From a virus, in IMG/VR virus record IMGVR_UViG_3300031576_001306, positions 1-31,947 of that record: a stretch of 31,947 nt of DNA. One strand, written 5' to 3'. The position numbers were made by a program, and so were the translations under genes. The notes beneath the pieces are model-generated. The model searched no databases and was not told the DNA's origin. It saw only the letters and a program-made list of their open reading frames with translations. This document shows, in pieces, positions 1 through 13,818 of this stretch; positions within the stretch are counted from its first letter, which is position 1, and each line of letters starts with the position of its first letter.

Positions 1-252
1 CTGAGCCCAGACCTGATCCCAGACCTGATCCCCGACCTGATCCCAGACCTGATCCCCGACCTGATCCCGAACCTGAGCCCGAACCTGATCCCCGACCTGA
101 TCCCGAACCTGATCCCGAACCTGAGCCCAGACCTGAGCCCAGACCTGATCCCGAACCTGAGCCCAGACCTGAGCCCCGACCTGATCCCCGACCTGAGCCC
201 AGACCTGAGCCCCGACCTGATCCCCGACCTGAGCCCAGACCTGAGCCCAGAC
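1..252. repeat. 12-bp coding minisatellite, 21 full units
   Basis: Twenty-one contiguous 12-bp units are present with no spacer, plus a degenerate unit beginning at 253. On the plus strand each unit is CTGA[G/T]CCC followed by AGAC, CGAC or GAAC. Read on the minus strand these encode [20 protein letters not shown] and VRDQ, and all six combinations occur. Variation is confined to two columns, while the V and Q codons and frame are kept. The array reaches the window edge, so its full length is unknown. Confidence 0.97.
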
Positions 253-501
253 CTGAGCCCCCTTCGGCGCCGCGACGATCCGCTGGATCATCGCGGCGCC
301 AATCGCGCCGGCCATGGGGGAGTCGAGCCAGATCACGAGCTCCGGGCCCGGAAGCCCGGCGCGCTCGTACGCGCGCCGCACGCCGGCCTCGGCTGCCTCG
401 CGGTCGGCCGGCTGGGTGCTCAGGCCGTGCTCGAGCCACTCGTCGCGGACGACGGGGAGCAGCGCGGCCTGAGCCTCGGTGAGCTTCGTGAGATTGGCCA
501 C
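1..501 (-). CDS. VxxQ tetrapeptide-repeat protein, N-terminal part (runs off left edge)
   Basis: The frame is open from a GTG at 501 to the left edge without a stop, so only the N-terminal part is present. The start lies three bases after the stop of the upstream gene, as expected in this operon. About 80 residues of ordinary sequence (starting [16 protein letters not shown]) come first. They are followed by an uninterrupted array of tetrapeptides V-[W/G/R]-[A/D]-Q that continues to the edge. From memory, actinobacterial and phage proteins with this N-terminus and DQV/AQV repeats often end in a DUF6745-type C-terminal region; that part is not in the window, so this is inference. Function is unknown. 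The repeat is coded by a 12-bp minisatellite and may vary in length between relatives. Confidence 0.8.
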
Positions 502-504
502 GGG

Positions 505-837
505 TCAGTCCGCGACGTAGACGGGCGCCTCGGGCGCGTACTCGCGCTGGCGGCGCACGAGGTAGTCGCCCGGCTCGAGCTTGATCGTGTCGTGCTCCTC
601 GTGCTCGACGGCGACCTCCTGCTCGACGCGCAGGAACCGGTCGGTCATCTCGTCGACGTCCGCCGGTGCGAACATCGTGACCGGGTCGTCGACGATGGCG
701 TGGGCGTGGCCGGTGACCTCGCCGTACGCGAGCACGACGCGGCCGCGGTCGCGCTCGACCTCGCGCAGTCCCTTCGGGATCTCGGTGATGCGGGTGATGA
801 GCACGTCGCCCTGACGTGCGTTGAACTGCTGTGTCAT
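505..837 (-). CDS. Conserved phage protein of unknown function (QGDVLI type)
   Basis: A 110-residue protein beginning MTQQFNARQGDVLITRI. It contains the motifs VVLAYGEVTGHAHAI near the middle and EHDTIKLEPGDYLVRRQREY near the C-terminus. I recognise this as a small phage/actinobacterial protein seen repeatedly in early regions, without a known function. The start at 837 is chosen because GGGAGGAC lies directly upstream at good spacing. An in-frame ATG at 867 has no such site. The stop is three bases before the next gene's GTG. The fold looks like a small beta-barrel with conserved His residues, but that is a guess. Confidence 0.8.
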   Translation of the reverse strand: MTQQFNARQGDVLITRITEIPKGLREVERDRGRVVLAYGEVTGHAHAIVDDPVTMFAPADVDEMTDRFLRVEQEVAVEHEEHDTIKLEPGDYLVRRQREYAPEAPVYVAD

Positions 838-1669: not shown

Positions 1670-2310
1670 GAGTGGCCTCCCTGGTCTCCTCCGGCGGCGA
1701 GCTGGGCGCGTGGCTCGGCGAGGCCGAGCGCGGTGAGCGGGTCCATGCGCGTGAGCTCGCCGGCAGCGCGCACGCCCGCGGCGACGATCGCGGCGATCTG
1801 TCGCTCGTCGAACGCGTCGTGCATCTGCTGCCAGTCGTCGGCGAGCTCGCGGCGGCGGACGGGCCCGTACTCGGGGCACGCAACCTCGAGCGTGCGTAGG
1901 CGCCGCACGCCCTGCCGGTTGAGGAACGCGAGGACAGAGGGGTGCATGCTCTCGGCGCGCTCGAGCGCGGCGAGGTCGCGGCCGGCTTCCATCGCGGCCT
2001 CGCTGTCGTAGCCGCCGGCGGGCAGGCGCGCGGCGAGCGCGCCGCGCGGCCCGAAGATCAGCTGCTCGGCCTCAGCCCACGTCGGGCGCCCAGCGTCGCG
2101 CCGCACCTCAGCGGCGAGCTCGCTCGCGCTCGGCCGGAACCTGGACCCGCGGGCGATGAGTGCTGTCAGCGCGATCCGAAGCTCGTCGGGGGAGTAGCCG
2201 TCGAGCAGCACTCGGTACGCGGTGGCGTTCTCGGGCCCGAACTCCCCTGGCCACCCGTTCAGCAGCAACGAGCAGAACCCGTCCCACTCCGTCGGCGTCC
2301 ACTCGCTCAT
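1666..2310 (-). CDS. Putative replicative helicase loader/inhibitor-like phage protein
   Basis: A 214-residue protein, start overlapping the stop of the upstream HTH replication gene by ATGA. The N-terminal 75 residues (W-x3-C-x-L-L-L-N-G-W-P...Y-x-x-L-L-D-G-Y...L-I-A-R-G-S-R-F-R-P-S) match the layout of the small helical domain found in phage helicase loaders of the G39P type. The match is the Y...L-x-D and final F-x-P-S-x-x-E motif. The rest is Ala/Arg-rich helix without a Walker motif, so it would not be an AAA+ loader. The position directly downstream of the probable replication initiator supports a replication role. The assignment is from pattern memory and moderately sure. Confidence 0.55.
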   Translation of the reverse strand: MSEWTPTEWDGFCSLLLNGWPGEFGPENATAYRVLLDGYSPDELRIALTALIARGSRFRPSASELAAEVRRDAGRPTWAEAEQLIFGPRGALAARLPAGGYDSEAAMEAGRDLAALERAESMHPSVLAFLNRQGVRRLRTLEVACPEYGPVRRRELADDWQQMHDAFDERQIAAIVAAGVRAAGELTRMDPLTALGLAEPRAQLAAGGDQGGHS

Positions 2311-3083
2311 GCTGGAACGCGCTCCTCGATCAAGCTCGTGAGCGCGTCGTGCCAGCGCCTGGCGTGCTCAGAAACCGGTGGCCGGTGCTGGTCGAGTCCC
2401 TGCGCTTGTCGGCGCAGCGCCGCCTGCAACAGCCCGGCGGCATCGACGCGGCGCAGGCCACCGCGGGCACGCCACTGCACGACGGTCCGCGCAGCAGCGA
2501 CCGCATCCTGGTCGCGCCACTGCTCGGCGACCTGCGAGACGGTCAGCTCGGCGACGAGCAGGCGAGGTGTCGCGGTGCGCAGGATCTCGACGACCTCCCC
2601 GACAGGATCGTCTTCCTGATCTGCTTCCCCCCCGCGCGCGACAGGAAGGGCTTGCGGAGAAGAATGGGTGTTCCCTGGTAGTTCTCTCGGACAGCCATGG
2701 CTGTCCGTTCTAGACCGGACAGCCTGGCTGTCCGGTCTGAACTCCGGGTTGAGGGTCTGCGCGAGCAGCTTGTAGAGGACCGTCTGGCCCTGCCCGCGGC
2801 GACGGCGGGTGACGAGGTCGTGCTCCTCGAGCGTTGCGAGATCGTCGCGGACGCGCTTCGTCGAGCAGCCGACTTCTTCGGCGAGCCGCTCCTGCGAGGG
2901 CCAGCAGTCACCGGTGCGGTAGTCCGCGTACGAGGCGAGCACGAGCAGCAGCAGCCGTGGGCGCTGCGGGAGGCCGACGCGCTTGCCGGCCTCGCGCGCC
3001 CACGCGGCCAGGTGCGGTGGCCCCGGCGCGACATCAGCGCCGGTCACTCCGGGCTCGAACAGATGCTCGGCAACGGCGCTCAC
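2307..3083 (-). CDS. Phage replication initiator-like protein with winged helix (HTH_36 type)
   Basis: A 258-residue protein. Residues about 40-97 (RPRLLLLVLASYADYRTGDCWPSQ, RLAEEVGCSTKRVRDDLATLEE, then HDLVTRRRRG) form a clear winged helix-turn-helix of the HTH_36 type. This type is common in phage replication proteins and plasmid initiators. A less ordered linker (residues about 110-160) is followed by a helical C-terminal domain (residues about 165-255). Two nested palindromes lie inside the linker-coding part, which is where origins embedded in initiator genes usually sit. The start overlaps the upstream stop by ATGA. It could instead be a transcription factor, but the neighbours favour replication. 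Confidence 0.7.
   Translation of the reverse strand: MSAVAEHLFEPGVTGADVAPGPPHLAAWAREAGKRVGLPQRPRLLLLVLASYADYRTGDCWPSQERLAEEVGCSTKRVRDDLATLEEHDLVTRRRRGQGQTVLYKLLAQTLNPEFRPDSQAVRSRTDSHGCPRELPGNTHSSPQALPVARGGEADQEDDPVGEVVEILRTATPRLLVAELTVSQVAEQWRDQDAVAAARTVVQWRARGGLRRVDAAGLLQAALRRQAQGLDQHRPPVSEHARRWHDALTSLIEERVPA
2688..2738. repeat. Pair of palindromes sharing GGACAGCC (candidate origin iterons or operator)
   Basis: Positions 2688-2707 form a perfect 20-bp palindrome with arms CGGACAGCCA/TGGCTGTCCG. Positions 2712-2738 form a second one with 13-base arms AGACCGGACAGCC and GGCTGTCCGGTCT around a single T. Together they give four copies of GGACAGCC in alternating orientation. They sit within the coding region of the HTH replication protein, at about residues 116-132. 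Symmetric repeats inside an initiator gene are typical of phage origins. A regulatory operator is the alternative. Confidence 0.75.
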
Positions 3084-5986: not shown

Positions 5987-7017
5987 GTGCGCACCGGGCC
6001 GCGGCGGGTGCATCTCACGTCACGGCTGGTAAGCGTGTGGCGGCGTCGGATGGCGCGGCGTTCGGGGAGGCCGTGCGGGCGGCCGTGCGCTCGCCACCAG
6101 TTCAGCTTGCGGCAGGTGTGGCGGTCGACTGCGGTGACAGCGGTCGGGCCGTCGTGGAGCTGGCGCATGAACACGTCCCACGGGAAGCTGGGGGCGACGT
6201 CGGTGTGGTTGTTGCCGCACTCCAGTGCGTCGTGGTCGGTGACGCCGAGCTTGTCCTCGCAGCCGTCGGGGTCCACGCGGGTGGCGGGGAGGCCACGGGC
6301 GCGCAGGCGGTCCCTGACGATGTCGGCGAGGGTCCCGCGCTTGATGAGCGGCGCGTTGAGCCATTGCTCGCGGGTCTCGAGGCCGGTCGCGATGATCTCG
6401 ATGCTTTCCGAGGTTGAGTTGAACGCGCCTTGGGTCCAGGCGTTCTTCTCCCAGGGCACCATCTGCAGGCAGTGCGCCTCGAAGTCGACGATCAGGTGAG
6501 ATGAGCCGCGGCGCGTGCGGTGGAAGTAGTCGCGCACCCCGTACACGTCGCCCCAGCCGAGGATGTTCGCGCTGACGGTGTAGTGCAGCTTCACCGACAT
6601 CACCTTCTCGCCGGGCCGGCGGTCGTTGTAGACGTGGCCGGAGAAGTCCTGCTCGCACGTGTAGCTCTGCGCGCCGCCGACCGGCAGCGGCGCAGTCACC
6701 GCCGGCAACTCGACCGCAGCGGCGTGCTCGCGGGCCTCGGCGGAAGCGAGCACCGGTGCCGGCACACTCGGCGGCGTTTCGTCGCGCAGCACCGAGGCTG
6801 CGGGCGCCGGCGCGGACCCCGTTGGCGCGGCCTGCAGATCACCGGCCGGCGCCTCCGCTTTCACGGTGACGGTGACGCGGTCCGGCCGGCCGTCGTGGTC
6901 CTCGTCGCTGACGGTGACGACGATCGTCACGAGGGCGCTGATGATCAGCAGCCCGGCGATCAGTTCACGGGCGTACGGGGCCGCCGCGTCCCGCAGGGCG
7001 CGCAGTAGACGTCGCAT
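5983..7017 (-). CDS. Membrane-anchored N-acetylmuramoyl-L-alanine amidase (endolysin)
   Basis: A 344-residue protein that would cleave the bond between muramic acid and L-alanine in peptidoglycan. Residues about 19-36 (ELIAGLLIISALVTIVVTVS) are a membrane anchor or uncleaved signal-arrest segment. A Pro/Ala linker follows to about 110. The Amidase_2-type domain spans about 135-290, with likely zinc ligands H145 (VKLHYTV), H262 (VTDHDALE) and D273 (HTDVAPSFPWD). E206 (ESIEI) sits in the catalytic strand region. The last 40 residues are Arg-rich. An N-terminal anchor suggests holin-controlled activation or release. Overlaps the next gene by ATGA. Confidence 0.85.
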   Translation of the reverse strand: MRRLLRALRDAAAPYARELIAGLLIISALVTIVVTVSDEDHDGRPDRVTVTVKAEAPAGDLQAAPTGSAPAPAASVLRDETPPSVPAPVLASAEAREHAAAVELPAVTAPLPVGGAQSYTCEQDFSGHVYNDRRPGEKVMSVKLHYTVSANILGWGDVYGVRDYFHRTRRGSSHLIVDFEAHCLQMVPWEKNAWTQGAFNSTSESIEIIATGLETREQWLNAPLIKRGTLADIVRDRLRARGLPATRVDPDGCEDKLGVTDHDALECGNNHTDVAPSFPWDVFMRQLHDGPTAVTAVDRHTCRKLNWWRAHGRPHGLPERRAIRRRHTLTSRDVRCTRRGPVRT

Positions 7018-7035
7018 GGGTGTCTCCCGAGTGGG

Positions 7036-7167
7036 TTAGGGCTTGCGGCGCGGGCGGATCGCGAACGCGCCAGCGCGAATGCACTGCTCGCGTGCGACTG
7101 CCCGCCAGTCGATAGTCAGCGCGGCGCGAACGGCGCGCACCGTGAGGCGGTGCAGCAGCGGGATCAC
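7036..7167 (-). CDS. Very small basic protein between fibre and endolysin genes
   Basis: A 43-residue frame from a GTG at 7167, with AAAGGGGG about eight bases upstream. The product is VIPLLHRLTVRAVRAALTID followed by WRAVAREQCIRAGAFAIRPR and a short basic end. It is helical and strongly basic, with one Cys. It fills the gap between the fibre gene (ends 7217) and the endolysin (starts 7017), and no other frame there is credible. Function unknown. Confidence 0.45.
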   Translation of the reverse strand: MIPLLHRLTVRAVRAALTIDWRAVAREQCIRAGAFAIRPRRKP

Positions 7168-7216
7168 CGCGGTGCCCCCTTTGAGCGTCAGGTTTCGTGT
7201 GGTTCTTCGGGGCGGC

Positions 7217-7831
7217 TCATCCCACCCTGACTGGCCTGGCCGCGATCCATCGCGACAGGAACGTTCCCGTCGCTCCAAGCGTGGTGCGGTACTGAAGTTT
7301 GAGGACGTCAGCCGCCGTCCGGCCCGTGAAGCGCAGTGTGCGCGATCCCGCGGCGCCTTGTGACTGCGCGGCGGGATTGCCGACCGCTTGGCTGATCGCC
7401 TCCGCGTCTGAGGTCGCGGCGGCGGCGATCTTCACCGAGGTCCAGAAGCGGTCCTGCGCTGTGCCCTCCATCGTCGCCCCGTAGGGAACGTCGTAGTCGC
7501 CGCCGAGCGGTAGCGTGATCGACGGCCCGACGGTCGCCAGGTCCACGTAGCTTGTGCTCGCGGTGGTCTGGCTGGCGGCAACGGCCGAGACGAGCGGGGC
7601 CCCGCCGACGAACTCCCACTTGTACGCGGACGCCGATGCGGCCCGGTAACGGAGCCGCCACACGACCCCAGCCGTGGCGTCCGCCACGTAGAAAATCTCC
7701 TGCCCATCAATGGCCGGCGACGGCAGAGCGGAGACCACGGGGATGGTGGCGGTGCGCTCGAGCGTCGCGATCCGCGCGCGCAGATCACCGAACAGCGCGA
7801 TGAGATCGGGGGGGATGTGGTAGTCGCTCAT
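7217..7831 (-). CDS. Tail fibre/baseplate-associated protein
   Basis: A 204-residue protein, ATGA overlap with the hub gene. A short N-terminal helix (LIALFGDLRARIATLERTAT), probably for trimerisation, leads into a beta-rich body. The motifs QEIFYVADATAGVVWRLRYR and YKWEFVGGAPL are of a kind common in actinophage fibre proteins. The C-terminal half alternates Thr/Ser/Gly strands and ends in SRWIAARPVRVG. It is the last structural gene before lysis. Likely receptor-contact or tip protein. Family recognised only in general terms. Confidence 0.65.
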   Translation of the reverse strand: MSDYHIPPDLIALFGDLRARIATLERTATIPVVSALPSPAIDGQEIFYVADATAGVVWRLRYRAASASAYKWEFVGGAPLVSAVAASQTTASTSYVDLATVGPSITLPLGGDYDVPYGATMEGTAQDRFWTSVKIAAAATSDAEAISQAVGNPAAQSQGAAGSRTLRFTGRTAADVLKLQYRTTLGATGTFLSRWIAARPVRVG

Positions 7832-8922
7832 ACGACCTCGACTGCGAGCGACGCGCGCAGCGCTGCTTCCTCACCCGGTGCCTGCGGGTCTTGAACCTCG
7901 AAGACCTCGAGACCACTGTCGTCGATCGCCACCGTGATGCCGTTCACCCGAACCTGCACGTCCTCTGTGAATGCCTCGCGTCGGACGTAGAGCCTTATGG
8001 TGTCGCCGAGCCAGAAGTCATCCCACGGGCTCGGGGCGAGCGCGGGCTCCGGTGCGAACGTCACCGTCTTGATCGGGTCGGGGCGAAGCAGAGCGAGGGC
8101 CTTGTCGTCCAGCGTCGCCTGCTCGATGACGTCGGTGTAGGACGCCTGCGCAGGCCACCTCCCGTATTTGAGGATCGAGGTAGCGTCGCTCTTCTGCGCA
8201 ATCAGGCCGTTACCGCCGATGACTGTCACGACGTTGACGGGGGGCTGCGTGGCGCGTTGCACGCTGCGCACGTTGCCCAGGGTGTCGGCGCCGTACTCGA
8301 AGCGCGCGGACGGCTGATCGACGCCCTGTCGAGGCACTGCGTTGAAGTACGCGCGCGTCGCGCCCTCGTCAACGAACGTCTCGTAGAAGTCGTAGCCGTC
8401 GAGGACGGCCGACAGGTCGATGATCGCCTTCCCCACATTCGCGTGCTGGTAGGTTCGATCGCGCGTCTTGCTGGCCGTGATTCCACCGGCGGTTGTCGCG
8501 ATCCCCGTCGGCGAATCCGTGTTCGTGGTGTCGATCAGGGACTTCGCGATCAGGCCGGCATCGGTCGCCGTGAACGCGACTGCTGCGGCGGTGAAGCGCC
8601 CGGTGCCGGAACCGTCGCCGAGCAAACGCGCGAACGGGGAGCGGAACACCAGATGCAACGCGCTGGCCTCCTCCGCCTCCTCCGTGAACGGCGCGAGCTG
8701 CCCATTGAAGCGCAGAACCCCGTCGCGGTAAGCCTTCAGCGCCGGGATGCCCGCATTCGCGAGCGCGTCGAGCAGCCTGGCTGCCGCGTCGTCCTCGTGA
8801 GCGATCGTGCAGGTCGCCTCAGCGTAGGTGTTGCGCCGGAACGTGAGCCGGCGGCCCGCGGCCGTCGTGAGCTCGGCGAGGTTGACACCCGCATGGTCGG
8901 TGAGTAGAAACGACCACGGCAC
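7828..8922 (-). CDS. Tail hub / tail-associated baseplate protein (gp37-like)
   Basis: A 364-residue protein beginning MPWSFLLTDHAGVNLAELT. It has the beta-rich pattern of siphovirus hub proteins that follow Dit: LTFRRNTYAEATCTIAHEDD, then VLRFNGQLAPFTEE and LHLVFRSPFARLLGD in the first 120 residues. A middle domain contains YDFYETFVDEGATRAYF, and a C-terminal part has DDFWLGDTIRLYVRRE. This arrangement is close to what I remember for ReqiPepy6 Gp37-like proteins. It would cap the tail tube and carry the fibres. No lytic motif is visible. The start lies four bases from the upstream stop. Confidence 0.65.
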   Translation of the reverse strand: MPWSFLLTDHAGVNLAELTTAAGRRLTFRRNTYAEATCTIAHEDDAAARLLDALANAGIPALKAYRDGVLRFNGQLAPFTEEAEEASALHLVFRSPFARLLGDGSGTGRFTAAAVAFTATDAGLIAKSLIDTTNTDSPTGIATTAGGITASKTRDRTYQHANVGKAIIDLSAVLDGYDFYETFVDEGATRAYFNAVPRQGVDQPSARFEYGADTLGNVRSVQRATQPPVNVVTVIGGNGLIAQKSDATSILKYGRWPAQASYTDVIEQATLDDKALALLRPDPIKTVTFAPEPALAPSPWDDFWLGDTIRLYVRREAFTEDVQVRVNGITVAIDDSGLEVFEVQDPQAPGEEAALRASLAVEVV

Positions 8923-8926
8923 GTGC

Positions 8927-10024
8927 TTAGAAGCCCATCGTCCAGACCCAAAGTTTGCGGTCGCGCACGGAAACCGACTGCCCGAGGAACTGCACGCTCA
9001 CGTCATAGGTGCCGGCCGCCGCGAAGATCGCGCACGGCCCACCCCGCTGTTGCTGCGATCCATCGTAGTCCGACGCCGCGACAAGCTGCCCAGTTGTCAC
9101 GTCCCCGCCGTAGTCAGGGCCAGTGGATAACATGATTGACGACAGACCAACCGAGCCTGATGCCAGCGGGCGGTACTTCCCAAGACCAGCACCCGCGCCG
9201 CCGCCGCTGAAGTCCGCCTCCTGAATGGTCGGAAGCGAAGGCTCATTCACCGCTGTTTTCAGATGGTTTGCCCCTATGAAGATCGCGGCCTTCGAGACGC
9301 CGGGATTGGTCGTCTCCTTCCAGCGTGCCTGGTAGGCGACGAAGATCAGGCCATCTGTCGGCAGGACCACATTCCGTACGCGGTCGGGTGTGGTCAGCAG
9401 CCCATAGGCCGCGTTGTTGCGTGTCTCCTCCGTGGCGATGATGGATTTGCCTCCGGCACCGCCGCGCCATAGCGGTGTACGGCGGTCGTCAATCTGCGAG
9501 TCCGTGATCGAGGTATCCGCTGCGGGCACGTTCACGACGGCGAGCGCGATTGCTGAGGTGGGCAGGGTCGGTGTGCCATTGACGCCGAGCGCGTCCGTCG
9601 CGGCGGCGCCGGCCGTTGCCGTGCCGGTGATGACGCGCGTCTGCGCGAGGTTCGAGCCGCTCGCGTCGTGCTGGTGATCCTTGATCTCGAGCACAACGAG
9701 GTCGTTACGCGGCAATGTGGCGTGAGCCGCGGTGATCGTCTCGTTTATCACCGACGCGTGCGGTGCGATGGTGTAGAGACCCTGCAGCGTCACGGCATCG
9801 CCCTGCACTCTGGCGCCGCTGCCGGTGCTCGCGGCAATATCAACGCTCACGTTCGCGCCAGCGGCGCGCTGACTTACCGCGTACGACCCCGAGCTGATGA
9901 TGCCCTCGTCCGCGACGCCCTCGAACTGGCGGCGTAGGTCGATGGCGTCGTAGCCGGGTGTTGTGCCGACGCCTTGCTGGGTCCAGGGGCCGTGGCCGAG
10001 TGCCGGGCCGATCGTCGTGGTCAT
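8927..10024 (-). CDS. Minor tail/baseplate protein (fibre-type)
   Basis: A 365-residue protein, ATGA overlap with the Dit-like gene. The N-terminal 180 residues (YDAIDLRRQFEGVADEGIIS, AVSQRAAGANVSVDIAASTG, NDLVVLEIKDHQHD, then ITDSQIDDRR) follow a layout that I know from minor tail proteins of many actinophages. There, a jelly-roll-like base is closed by the DDRR motif. The C-terminal half is a separate beta-rich domain (LIFVAYQARWKE, AIFAAAGTYDVSVQFLG) probably exposed and ligand-binding. It would attach near the tail tip. Confidence 0.7.
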   Translation of the reverse strand: MTTTIGPALGHGPWTQQGVGTTPGYDAIDLRRQFEGVADEGIISSGSYAVSQRAAGANVSVDIAASTGSGARVQGDAVTLQGLYTIAPHASVINETITAAHATLPRNDLVVLEIKDHQHDASGSNLAQTRVITGTATAGAAATDALGVNGTPTLPTSAIALAVVNVPAADTSITDSQIDDRRTPLWRGGAGGKSIIATEETRNNAAYGLLTTPDRVRNVVLPTDGLIFVAYQARWKETTNPGVSKAAIFIGANHLKTAVNEPSLPTIQEADFSGGGAGAGLGKYRPLASGSVGLSSIMLSTGPDYGGDVTTGQLVAASDYDGSQQQRGGPCAIFAAAGTYDVSVQFLGQSVSVRDRKLWVWTMGF

Positions 10025-10887
10025 GTGTATGCGCTCCGGTAGAGGACGTCGCAGCGGGCGACGGTGTCGAACGTGCCGGCGAGAAGCTGGATCGTGCTGG
10101 CGCCCCGCGGTAGGTCGAACCAGGTTGTGTTCGCGGCGTCGAGGAAGTTCAGGACCGAACTCGTCCCGTTGACCTTGATCGTGCGCTGCGCAACGTCGAT
10201 CTCGAGGTAGTCACCGGCCGCGATCGTGCCGGTCAGTGCGATCCGCGAGGTGCTGCCAACCAAGAGGACCTGCGGGTTCACACACATCCCGTAGACGCGG
10301 AAGATCGGAGGTGTCGGCCGGTTGCCGATGTTGTTCACGGCGACGGCGCCACCGGCGCTCGCGGAGAACGTGATCGGCATGGTCCGCGGCCATGTCCAGC
10401 CGCCGGGGGCGGTGCTGATCGTCCCGCCCGTCGCCGTGTTCAGCGTCTGCGAGTACGCGCGCGGGTCCTCGGCAAGCAGCTGCGCTTGGTAGGCGAGCAG
10501 GTTCGCGCCGACCTCGACCGGGGGCTCAACCTCGCCGTACAGCTTCACGGACGCTTGGAGCGCGAGGCCGCTTTCCTCGGTCCATTTCAGCAGAGCTGCG
10601 CCCTCATCGAGCGTCTGGAGCATGGGGGTTGTCAGCGTCCGGAACTCCGCGAACGCGTCGGCTGGTGAGACGGTCGAGTGCACGCGACCTTCGAGCACGA
10701 CCAGGCGCCCGTCGGTCCAGCGGGTGTCGTTGATCTGGCCGTGCGCCGTCGGCCGGGAGCGCACGACCTGTCGTGGCGACTGGATACCCGACAGGCCGAT
10801 GGCGCGGTGGATGCGGCGCTTACCGGTCGGCTGGTGGAAGTCGACCGGTGAGCCGGAAGCGTCATTGAGCGTGATCGCCGAGAACAC
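10021..10887 (-). CDS. Distal tail protein-like (Dit) baseplate protein
   Basis: A 288-residue protein, GTG start three bases after the tape measure stop. Features of Dit proteins are the N-terminal VDFHQPTGKRRIHRAIGLSG and a beta-hairpin region with WTDGRLVVLEGRVHS (about residues 55-75). A later body follows with YQAQLLAEDPRAYS, PGGWTWPRTMPITFSA and the final WFDLPRGASTIQLLA galectin-like strand motif. Position directly after the tape measure is the standard place. Dit forms the hexameric ring joining tube and hub. Confidence 0.75.
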   Translation of the reverse strand: MFSAITLNDASGSPVDFHQPTGKRRIHRAIGLSGIQSPRQVVRSRPTAHGQINDTRWTDGRLVVLEGRVHSTVSPADAFAEFRTLTTPMLQTLDEGAALLKWTEESGLALQASVKLYGEVEPPVEVGANLLAYQAQLLAEDPRAYSQTLNTATGGTISTAPGGWTWPRTMPITFSASAGGAVAVNNIGNRPTPPIFRVYGMCVNPQVLLVGSTSRIALTGTIAAGDYLEIDVAQRTIKVNGTSSVLNFLDAANTTWFDLPRGASTIQLLAGTFDTVARCDVLYRSAYT

Positions 10888-10890
10888 CGG

Positions 10891-13818
10891 CTAGCCCGTC
10901 GTCGCGATCCGGAAGGCGAGGCGCTCCGCGAACGAGCGGGCCTCCAGGTGACTGCCGATCTGCGCGTGCTCGATATGCACGAGTGCCCCGCCAGCGAGCT
11001 CGTGGTTCGGTGTGACTCGCGAGCCGCGACGCAGGTTGACGATCTCGGGTCCGGACTCACCGACGACGTATGGGCCGCTTCGTCCGACCATGCCGCCTTT
11101 CTCGAAGAAGCCGAGATGCAGGTGCAAGCCCGAGCCGACGTCGTGGACGAGCAGTTCGGCGAGTTTCATGTGCGATCGCGCCCACGCCTGGGCCTGGTAC
11201 ATCTTGCTCACCGGGCCGGCGAGGTCTATCGCGCCGGGGTTGCCGGGTGAGCCGTGCGTGTGGAGGCTGTTCGGGACGCCGCCGACCGCAGCGTTGTGCT
11301 GCGGGGTGCGGTAGCCGGACGTGACGTGCAGCCCGAACATCGAGGCGACCTTTCCGGCCTGTGCGAGCGTCCCACCAGTGATCGACCCACTGCCGCCGGT
11401 GCCTTGCAGGATCGACGGGACGCTGCCGCCGGGGTCGCCCTTGCCGCCCTTCTTTGCCTTCAGCTTCGTATCCGACAGGAACGACTTGATCGCCGCGGCG
11501 ATCTTCTCGACCTTCAACAGCGACTCGGCCAGGCCGGACACGAACGCGTCGCCGAGGACCATGCCCGCCGTCTCGTAGTCGACGCCGAAGCTCGCGAACA
11601 GCTTCATCACCCTCTTGTGCGCGGTCGCTTGCGACGCGCCCTCCGTCGCAAGCGACGTCTGGAGCGCGGTGAGGCGGCTCTCGAAGTGCGTGCGCTTGAG
11701 GGCGATCTCCGCGTTCAGTTGGAGGCGCTCGTCGGCGGCGCGCTTCTGGAGCGCGGCCATCGTGATCGCCGTCTCCGCGTCCAGTACCGCCTTCTTGGCA
11801 GCGAGGATCGCCTGCGGGTCGCCTGCGGTCGTCGCCGCCGTCAGGCCCTTCTTGGCCTCGGCGAGCGTGTTCATCCGGTCGATTTGCGCGATGTTGTCCT
11901 GCCAGATGCGGAGCTGGTGCTCGGCCGGCGTCTCCTGGCCGGCGAACATCTTGTCGAACGCCGACAGCGCGCCCGAGGCCAGCGACCCCCAGGCCGTGTT
12001 GAACGCGCCACGCTTCGACTCGATAGTGGTCCGTGCCCGCTCGACGGCGGCGGTGATCGAATCGCTGAGCGCCTGCGGCAACGCGGCAGACCCCGTGACC
12101 CAGCCCTTGAGCGCGCCCTCCGCAAGCGGCTTGCCGATGTACTTCTCACCGCCGTGCTCCACCGGCGAAAACGGATTGAGACTTTCCAGCACACCCTTCA
12201 GCGTGGACTCAAGCTTCGACTTCAAGGCGGCGAACAGGCCGCCGAGACCGCTGAGCACACCGTCGATGATCTTCTGGCCGATCGTCCTGGCGCCCTGAAG
12301 GACGGACTCACCGATGCTGGTCAGCCCGCTCCGGACCTTCTCGAGTACCCAGCCGCCGACAGCGGCCAGGCCGCTGAGCGCCGCTCGCACCCCGTCGATC
12401 ATTCGGCCGAGCAGCCACTTCCCGACCGTGAGGTAGGCGCTGGCGTGGGCTTTGATCGCGTCGTCTATGTGCGACAGCACCCAGCCGGCGGCCGTGACGA
12501 GTAGGCCGGGCAGGAGTTTGATCCCGTCCGCGACCTTGCCGAGTAGCCACTTGCCGACCGTGAGGTAGGCGCTGGCGTGGGCTTTGATCGCGTCGTCTAT
12601 GTGCGACAGCACCCAGCCGGCGGCCGTGACGAGCAGGCCGGGGAGCGCCTTGATGCCGGCGACGAGCCCTTGCAGGATGCCCTGCCCGGCCGCCTTCATC
12701 TTCGCGGGGATCTTGTCGAACTCGCGGAAGAACCCGACGACCGCGGCCGCGCCGATCTTGAGCGCGTCCCAAACGGTGTTCACGATGTTGCGGAACGTCT
12801 CGCTCTCGCGGTACGCGACGACAAAGCCCGCCGCGAGAGCGGCGAGCGCGAGCGCGATCAGTACGAACGGATTGGCGGCCATGACCGCGTTGAGCGCGGC
12901 CTGCGCCCCGGTCATCAGCGCGGTGATCGCGGCGCTCGCCTTCATCGCAAGGTTCACGCCGAGCAGCGTCGCAGTCAGGCCAACCAGAGCGAGGCCGAGG
13001 ATCTTCGCGAGCTTCGGGTGCTCCTGAAGGAACGAGCCGACCTCAGCGGCGATCTTCGCGAGTGATTCCAGCGCCGGGAGCAGCGCGGAGACGAGGCCGC
13101 CCGCCACGTCCTCGAAAGAGTTGCGCAGCTTGCTGAGCTGGCCGGGGAACGTCTTGCCCGCGGCTTCGGCGCTGCCGCCGAACTCCTTTTGCAGTTCGGC
13201 GAGCACGATCTTCTGTGCGCCCATCGTGTCACCGGACGCGACCATCGCCTTGATCTGGTCCTTCTGCGCGTCGGTGAACGTCACGCCCTGCTTCGTCAGC
13301 TTCGACAGGCCGGCCGCGGGGTCGTTCAGCGCCTTACCCAGACTCATGGCCGCGGTCTTCACATCAGTGCCCATCGCGGTCGCCATGTCGGCGGCGGCCT
13401 GCGTGGTCTGGTTGAAGATGTCGTTGCCCTTGCCGGCCTCGTTCCTGATCCCCGTGAACGTGAGCAGCAGGTTCTCGCCGGACTGGATCGCTTCGTCGTC
13501 GATCCCGGACTTGCGGCTGATCGCACCGGCGAGCTTCTCAACCTCGCTGCTGGTGATCTTCGCCGCACCGCCGGTGGATTTCAGCACCGCCTGGGTTTGC
13601 GCGGTGACCTTCTGGCCTTCGGCGAGCTCCCCGAACCCGGCCTTCGCGGCGACCGCGAGACCGGCGCCGAGCGCGAACCCCGCGGTCTTCGCGGCGGTCG
13701 ACAGCCCGCCCAGTCCCTTGCCGGCCTTGTCGCTCTCGCCTTTGACGCGGCCTGTTGCCTTCTCGAGGCTGGAGGTGTCACCGATGAACTCGATAACGAG
13801 ACGGCGTGACGTGGCCAT
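10891..13818 (-). CDS. Tape measure protein with M15-like peptidase domain
   Basis: A 975-residue protein that sets tail length and travels with the DNA. AGGAGGTGAACC precedes the ATG, a strong ribosome site overlapping the chaperone stop. The N-terminal part has helical coiled regions. Hydrophobic segments lie at about residues 270-340 (ILGLALVGLTATLLGVNLAM, FVLIALALAALAAGFVVAY). A 44-residue internal repeat follows at about residues 390-475. Residues about 815-903 form a D-Ala-D-Ala carboxypeptidase-like M15 domain with SGYRTPQHNAAVGG, HTHG, AIDLAG and GLHLHLGF, which supply the His/Asp/His zinc set. This would help the tail pass the cell wall. The length fits a tail of ordinary siphovirus size. 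Confidence 0.92.
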   Translation of the reverse strand: MATSRRLVIEFIGDTSSLEKATGRVKGESDKAGKGLGGLSTAAKTAGFALGAGLAVAAKAGFGELAEGQKVTAQTQAVLKSTGGAAKITSSEVEKLAGAISRKSGIDDEAIQSGENLLLTFTGIRNEAGKGNDIFNQTTQAAADMATAMGTDVKTAAMSLGKALNDPAAGLSKLTKQGVTFTDAQKDQIKAMVASGDTMGAQKIVLAELQKEFGGSAEAAGKTFPGQLSKLRNSFEDVAGGLVSALLPALESLAKIAAEVGSFLQEHPKLAKILGLALVGLTATLLGVNLAMKASAAITALMTGAQAALNAVMAANPFVLIALALAALAAGFVVAYRESETFRNIVNTVWDALKIGAAAVVGFFREFDKIPAKMKAAGQGILQGLVAGIKALPGLLVTAAGWVLSHIDDAIKAHASAYLTVGKWLLGKVADGIKLLPGLLVTAAGWVLSHIDDAIKAHASAYLTVGKWLLGRMIDGVRAALSGLAAVGGWVLEKVRSGLTSIGESVLQGARTIGQKIIDGVLSGLGGLFAALKSKLESTLKGVLESLNPFSPVEHGGEKYIGKPLAEGALKGWVTGSAALPQALSDSITAAVERARTTIESKRGAFNTAWGSLASGALSAFDKMFAGQETPAEHQLRIWQDNIAQIDRMNTLAEAKKGLTAATTAGDPQAILAAKKAVLDAETAITMAALQKRAADERLQLNAEIALKRTHFESRLTALQTSLATEGASQATAHKRVMKLFASFGVDYETAGMVLGDAFVSGLAESLLKVEKIAAAIKSFLSDTKLKAKKGGKGDPGGSVPSILQGTGGSGSITGGTLAQAGKVASMFGLHVTSGYRTPQHNAAVGGVPNSLHTHGSPGNPGAIDLAGPVSKMYQAQAWARSHMKLAELLVHDVGSGLHLHLGFFEKGGMVGRSGPYVVGESGPEIVNLRRGSRVTPNHELAGGALVHIEHAQIGSHLEARSFAERLAFRIATTG
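12409..12672. repeat. 132-bp tandem direct repeat inside tape measure gene
   Basis: Two adjacent copies (12409-12540 and 12541-12672) have a period of 132 bp, or 44 codons. An 80-bp core is identical (12422-12501 and 12554-12633). The rest diverges. Each copy encodes LPGLLVTAAGWVLSHIDDAI followed by KAHASAYLTVGKWLLG. The identity suggests a recent duplication, or gene conversion. Confidence 0.9.

Follow-up and report, generated by a model that had tools for sequence, protein, structure and literature searches.

The question raised by the window, which is the entire IMG/VR record of 31,947 bases and is classed as linear, is what kind of protein carries the short-unit repeat at its left edge and what such a repeat might do for a phage. 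A 12-bp array was detected by TRF at positions 1 to 260 (21.7 copies, 88% matches, score of 324), and base identity at a lag of 12 was 0.88 over positions 1 to 258, with shuffled sequences reaching at most 0.38 (n = 1,000). Therefore, the array did not arise by chance. Translation of the minus strand gave 21 contiguous 12-bp units of the form V-[W/G/R]-[A/D]-Q, as the first-pass annotation had read them, with the full units occupying positions 1 to 252. The first variable residue (x) was W in nine units, G in seven, and R in five, the second (y) was D in 11 and A in 10, and all six x-y words were present. On the plus strand, this variation came down to one G/T column and a two-base AG/CG/GA block, also in agreement with the earlier reading, and the Q and V residues were indeed fixed. 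Q was invariably encoded by CAG, while V was encoded by GTC preceding W or G and by GTT preceding R. Contigs from short-read assemblies commonly end inside repeats. The window array runs off the contig, so that 21 units is a minimum and the C terminus of the protein is unreadable here.

The open reading frame that contains the array occupies positions 1 to 501 of the minus strand, with a GTG start at 501 to 499 and its 3' end cut by the contig edge, and comprises an N-terminal domain followed by at least 21 units. The N-terminal domain, of approximately 80 residues (positions 253 to 501, minus strand; LTxxQ..R-W--GLST-PADR..), exhibited 49 to 68% identity to eight viral loci (best, 68%), and this homology to other phage proteins supports the reading frame. 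At all eight loci, the open reading frames continue into DUF6745-type C-terminal sequence. Four distinct relatives (L002, L003, L004, and L005) encode in succession the N-terminal domain, an array of this type, and DUF6745, and L006 and L007 to L009 encode the N-terminal domain with no array. The full layout in the relatives is thus an N-terminal domain of about 75 to 80 residues, the array, and then DUF6745 (PF20530). All six relatives tested passed the PF20530 profile with 91.6 to 159.6 bits against a cutoff of 27. The window protein ends ahead of this region, so no PF20530 match was possible, and the C-terminal DUF6745 that would be expected is missing. The first-pass annotation had taken the product for a phage protein with a nonrepetitive N terminus and had pointed to DUF6745-like ends in similar proteins; each of these points held, the array being situated between two nonrepetitive domains. 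Library matches to Kdo kinase, DUF4816, GvpQ, trigger factor, and other families were weak, being below cutoffs or on low-complexity sequence, and were discarded.

Upstream of the array gene, the window encodes an HTH_36/phage replication-initiation-like protein (positions 2307 to 3083, minus strand). The other phage genes on the minus strand include terminase, portal, capsid, amidase, serine recombinase, and a tape measure gene with a peptidase M15 domain. A 132-bp direct repeat (1.9 copies, 92% matches) was also observed inside the tape measure gene at positions 12406 to 12658. This context bears on the idea that the product is a structural fiber or an ice-binding-like scaffold protein of the virion. 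A low-complexity periodic sequence would suit such a protein, and the gene lies on the structural-gene strand, at the opposite end of the window from the terminase. However, it is downstream of the replication-initiation-like gene, the prophiGD102-1 copy is surrounded by genes for replication and regulation (RepA-like, ERF, and WhiB), and the units change in alphabet and order too rapidly for a component of the virion. A virion role is thus considered very unlikely.

When the DUF6745 part was used as the query, 75 viral loci were obtained, and the array pattern searched against viral contigs yielded at least 120 stretches. Of 80 array loci read, 63 encode the N-terminal domain and/or the DUF6745 part, the remainder being mostly small array-only genes. 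Strict four-residue periodicity was found in about 45 viral proteins examined, with lags of 3, 5, 6, and 7 scoring nothing comparable. The chromosomal DUF6745 proteins share the homologous C-terminal domain, but no comparable array was present in the 80 closest chromosomal homologues, except for a 15-residue LGTG/LDTG stretch in L152. The QV array pattern was found in 0 of 396 actinobacterial genomes, and an array-only query of isolated phages gave a Mycobacterium abscessus prophage as the sole convincing match. The absence from the chromosomal homologues and the actinobacterial genomes indicates that the array is essentially a viral feature. On two annotated Streptomyces plasmids (L304 and L305), DUF6745 and the partner gene described below adjoin an uncharacterized STM4011-STM4015 radical-SAM cluster. 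Together with the arrayless chromosomal proteins, this neighborhood suggests an older, different role for DUF6745.

The array gene of the window adjoins a small partner gene (positions 505 to 837, minus strand; 110 residues), which matches phrog_27831 (E value, 1.4e-15) and ends 3 bases ahead of it. The product has the pattern RQGD..GHAH..HEEH..VRRQREY..VAD, in which the invariant histidines of the GHxH and HxxH types suggest a metal site. The partner was found near DUF6745 at 75 of 80 chromosomal loci, 36 of 44 viral loci with a fused array, and 42 of 50 arrayless viral loci. Small array-only genes were found near DUF6745 at 26 of 49 arrayless viral loci, 1 of 44 fused loci, and none of the 80 chromosomal loci, these counts not being independent since some arrayless loci are near-duplicates. 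Hence, array and DUF6745 are either fused or neighbors, which points to a common function. The batteries comprise up to 18 array-only genes, with many 4-base stop/start overlaps. Their products are of about 45 to 110 residues, for example, MKQV(SDQV..)n..QVKENLK, each differing in word order. Batteries of such genes in a row were seen at L007/L008 (positions 6362 to 10179), L043, L044, L027, L033, L168, and L203, and further ones at L230, L233, L248, L271, and L302.

Closely related copies were compared, and their arrays proved to be hypervariable. In the M. abscessus prophages L010, L015, and L017, the upstream flanks were identical at 600 of 600 bases and the downstream flanks at 599 to 600 of 600, and these flanks enclosed 45, 18, and 61 units, respectively. 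A fourth copy, L016, compared on the downstream side alone, had an identical flank and at least 20 units, its array being cut at a contig edge. The arrays of L010, L015, and L016 had common end words and short runs, while that of L017 could be aligned with those of L010 and L015 no better than a shuffle. Nocardia farcinica IFM10152 and NCTC11134, with flanks 99.7 to 99.8% identical, carried 15 and 38 units with different word sets, and a metagenome pair with identical flanks (L214/L228) carried 30 and 35. The M. abscessus and metagenome arrays were mostly read from assemblies alone. For NCTC11134, the same unit order was found in a second contig, save for two single-base deletions, one of them in a flank and the other in the array; this agreement speaks against assembly noise as the source of the array. 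It was also observed that the NCTC11134 plasmid 3 record (L181) repeats part of plasmid 2 (L180) and looks like a redundant contig, with single-base deletions in the repeated part that split the DUF6745 gene. The proposal that unit number and order are variable was therefore upheld: near-identical flanks carry different arrays, and unit order, whose identity among all relatives had been set beforehand as evidence against the proposal, was not identical.

The codons showed where this variability is confined. In 80 Q[VL]xy arrays with 1,879 units, variation was counted as departure from the majority base of the same array. Bases 1 and 2 of the Q and V codons were invariant, and the third bases were near-fixed, varying in 0.2% (Q) and 1.1% (V) of the units. 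The first base of x varied in 50% and the second base of y in 36%. The same picture was obtained with 27 arrays whose discovery made no use of the array sequence. The constant codons differed between arrays (GTC, GTT, GTG, GTA, or CTC; CAG or CAA), and alternative frameworks were observed, namely, S-V-x-[D/A], A-T-x-[A/D], S-S-L-x, A-V-x-[G/D], and S-Q-L-x. Across frameworks, nearly all x residues belonged to a limited, chemically contrasting repertoire (W/G/R, supplemented in certain phages by E, S, D, Y, or H), and nearly all y residues belonged to D/A/G/S. The recurrence of phi-x-[D/A/G/S]-[Q/S/A] in different codons indicates a constraint on the protein, and synonymous sites that are fixed within arrays but differ between them indicate protein selection together with DNA-level homogenization of each array.

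These data can be set against the simplest account, in which the array is a passive minisatellite serving as a flexible or helical linker, its unit number drifting by slippage and its W/G/R and A/D choices being tolerated noise. Tandem 12-bp repeats are intrinsically unstable. Segmental duplications were present in some arrays (longest duplicated run significant in 9 of 57), and Llij, a relative of phage Tweety, is without the Tweety array gene, which is dispensable there (PMC2884959). Neutral drift, however, should leave synonymous variants, and the third bases of V and Q were near-fixed beside freely varying x and y. In addition, one alphabet is shared by arrays that differ in framework and codons, and identical neighbors were not in excess, being more frequent in only 2 of 57 arrays and less frequent in 6, with WW and AA slightly depleted in the pooled arrays. 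Overall, a passive minisatellite appears unlikely.

The order of units within arrays was thus close to random, and the Arg units gave an indication of how new orders arise. The five Arg units of the window are all linked to a GTT valine codon, as expected if whole words were copied. When arrays with four or more Arg units were compared (n = 58), Arg was encoded only by AGG in 35, only by CGG in 21, and by both in 2. Variation restricted to two bases per unit could also be produced by targeted mutagenesis, with a diversity-generating retroelement or another base-directed process rewriting the first base of x and the second base of y. Random change at the former, however, should mix AGG and CGG, and the window Arg words appear to have been copied. 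Furthermore, reverse transcriptase (RVT_1) was detected in 0 of 8 records, comprising the window and seven related records that may be fragments, with 3 of 14 control genomes positive. A diversity-generating retroelement was rejected on the RVT_1 result and the unmixed Arg codons. The Arg codons, unmixed in nearly all arrays, the linked GTT, and the lack of reverse transcriptase in these records make random base-directed mutation unlikely, and targeted mutagenesis as a whole is barely credible. What remains as a simple mechanism is that a few founder words are copied when 12-bp units recombine or slip against one another. Copying by recombination is a better fit than simple slippage, and random mutation fits far less well than such copying. 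The first-pass annotation had suggested slippage or recombination; change in number and order was confirmed, but slippage as the mechanism sits less well with the near-random order and the lack of excess identical neighbors. Recombination genes near some copies, namely, ERF in prophiGD102-1 and a lambda-type exonuclease with RecT in N. farcinica, could promote array change.

Structure prediction with AlphaFold2 was conducted on 26 relatives. The N-terminal domain (pLDDT of >90 in L012) and DUF6745 were predicted confidently, with the array modeled as a helix at a pLDDT of 40 to 50. The window array alone was modeled as one continuous alpha-helix with a mean pLDDT of 89 and a pTM of 0.46. The models suggest that the array is a long alpha-helix rather than a solenoid, with low confidence in the full-length model. 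In an alpha-helix, each four-residue unit adds about 6 angstroms and about 40 degrees, so that the number of units would alter both the spacing and the rotation of the end domains. No clear pattern indicating a fixed helical phase was found in the lengths of 49 arrays modulo 9 units. Searches with the full-length model using Foldseek and VIA gave nothing convincing (best Z score, 4.1, WRKY domains), and PDB sequence searches gave no convincing match. TALE-type arrays consist of 34-residue solenoid repeats that read DNA, with two variable residues per unit. The window array is similar in its constant scaffold and two variable residues but differs in having units of four residues and no known target.

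The closest described system is gp54 of mycobacteriophage Tweety, which has 12-bp units that encode A-A-[G/W/Q]-[S/Y] with invariant third positions (PMC2884959). This codon signature was confirmed here, x being encoded by GGG, TGG, or CAG. The end parts of the gene (426 and 111 nt) proved to be identical in Tweety, DeadP, Taj, and KristaRAM, where they enclose 48, 38, 30, and 16 units, respectively, counts that include one extra word, LI, at the array end. The gp54 group, which also includes Che8 gp57 and PMC gp51, resembles the window gene in being a phage accessory gene with conserved termini around an array of 12-bp tetrapeptide units, with fixed third positions (the exception on the window side being GTT before R) and variation in x and y. 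As in the DUF6745 arrays, unit number and order differ between identical-ended copies. The frameworks are different, AA-x-y in gp54 and Q-V-x-y in the DUF6745 arrays, and the N- and C-terminal parts are unrelated, the DUF6745 side being judged from the C terminus of relatives, as that of the window is missing. No homology of gp54 to the N-terminal domain, DUF6745, or the partner was detectable in profile searches (E ≥ 0.1), and gp54 had no Pfam match. With the same layout and variability on an unrelated scaffold, the window protein therefore resembles gp54 but lies outside its family. Another repeat, VR2 of bbp36 from Bordetella phage BMP-1, has been cited as a gp54 analogue; it is likewise a coding repeat whose copy number varies and whose phage gene is dispensable (PMC2884959). 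It differs in being a 24-bp element with 5-bp spacers.

According to reviews, escape mutants in which gp54 has gained or lost repeats overcome prophage defenses, and gp54 is described as a counter-defense protein tuned by repeat number (PMC9262239, PMC8549241). This activity is reported for gp54 only and not for DUF6745 arrays (PMC9262239, PMC8549241), and since gp54 is not detectably homologous to the window proteins, their function is argued by analogy. The gp54 phenotypes also bear on the possibility that the array is a self/non-self or superinfection tag, that is, a phage-specific label matched between copies in exclusion or polymer assembly. Each lineage has its own array, many phages encode 5 to 18 different array-only proteins at once, and the predicted long helix could associate. 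However, the reported phenotypes are directed against unrelated prophage defenses, and a tag is considered distinctly unlikely.

Counter-defense or recognition is the best-supported role for the window protein, although the case is evenly balanced. The more complete proposal, to which we would give about an even chance, is that of a phage accessory protein with a tunable counter-defense or recognition function whose array is changed by recombination between units. The protein, with its N-terminal domain, hypervariable array, and DUF6745, would be made together with the small histidine-rich partner, and array length and word order would set which host or prophage defense (or competitor) is met. 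The fixed V/L/T and Q/S/A residues would form a constant, probably helical scaffold on which the two free positions change the surface, and gain or loss of units would also alter how far apart the two end domains lie and how they are rotated against each other. The 12-bp units have 10 of 12 bases in common, and recombination or template slippage between them would generate new arrays, with protein-level selection maintaining the small, chemically contrasting alphabet. Variable arrays between identical flanks, combined with a fixed alphabet and fixed synonymous sites, are what would be expected of an arms-race specificity element. Annotation of defense systems with PADLOC gave nothing convincing, with weak Cas2 matches on the array only.

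A broader proposal is put forward tentatively, as somewhat less than probable: many phage lineages may share an undescribed device, in which helical short-unit arrays with a two-position alphabet of contrasting chemistry, either fused to DUF6745 or split into batteries of up to about 18 small array-only proteins, act as a fast-changing repertoire that recognizes or neutralizes variable host or prophage defenses. If so, the class would extend far beyond gp54, which would represent one of its scaffolds, and what had been a single odd case in Tweety is suggested to belong to something widespread in phages. New in this study are a second scaffold for gp54-like arrays, consisting of DUF6745 and the histidine-rich partner, and the split versions with many small array-only genes. 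How the order and number of four-residue words relate to specificity, a point left open by the work on gp54, becomes testable.

Several individual loci departed from the common layout. The QVxy arrays of L213, L245, and L252 were joined to another type of C-terminal sequence (ATSYWAIKVVLGLPIKHWFFDFLKLG..), which may represent a third scaffold. Arrays that were very long or eroded occurred at L061, L064, and L083, in open reading frames of 1,425, 1,018, and 676 residues, respectively, and in L083, a YHETVDAI block recurs within an AT-x-y array. The cyanophage Ma-LMM01 of Microcystis (L303) encodes a distant DUF6745-like protein, gp174, at positions 6431 to 7567, beside DNA metabolism genes.
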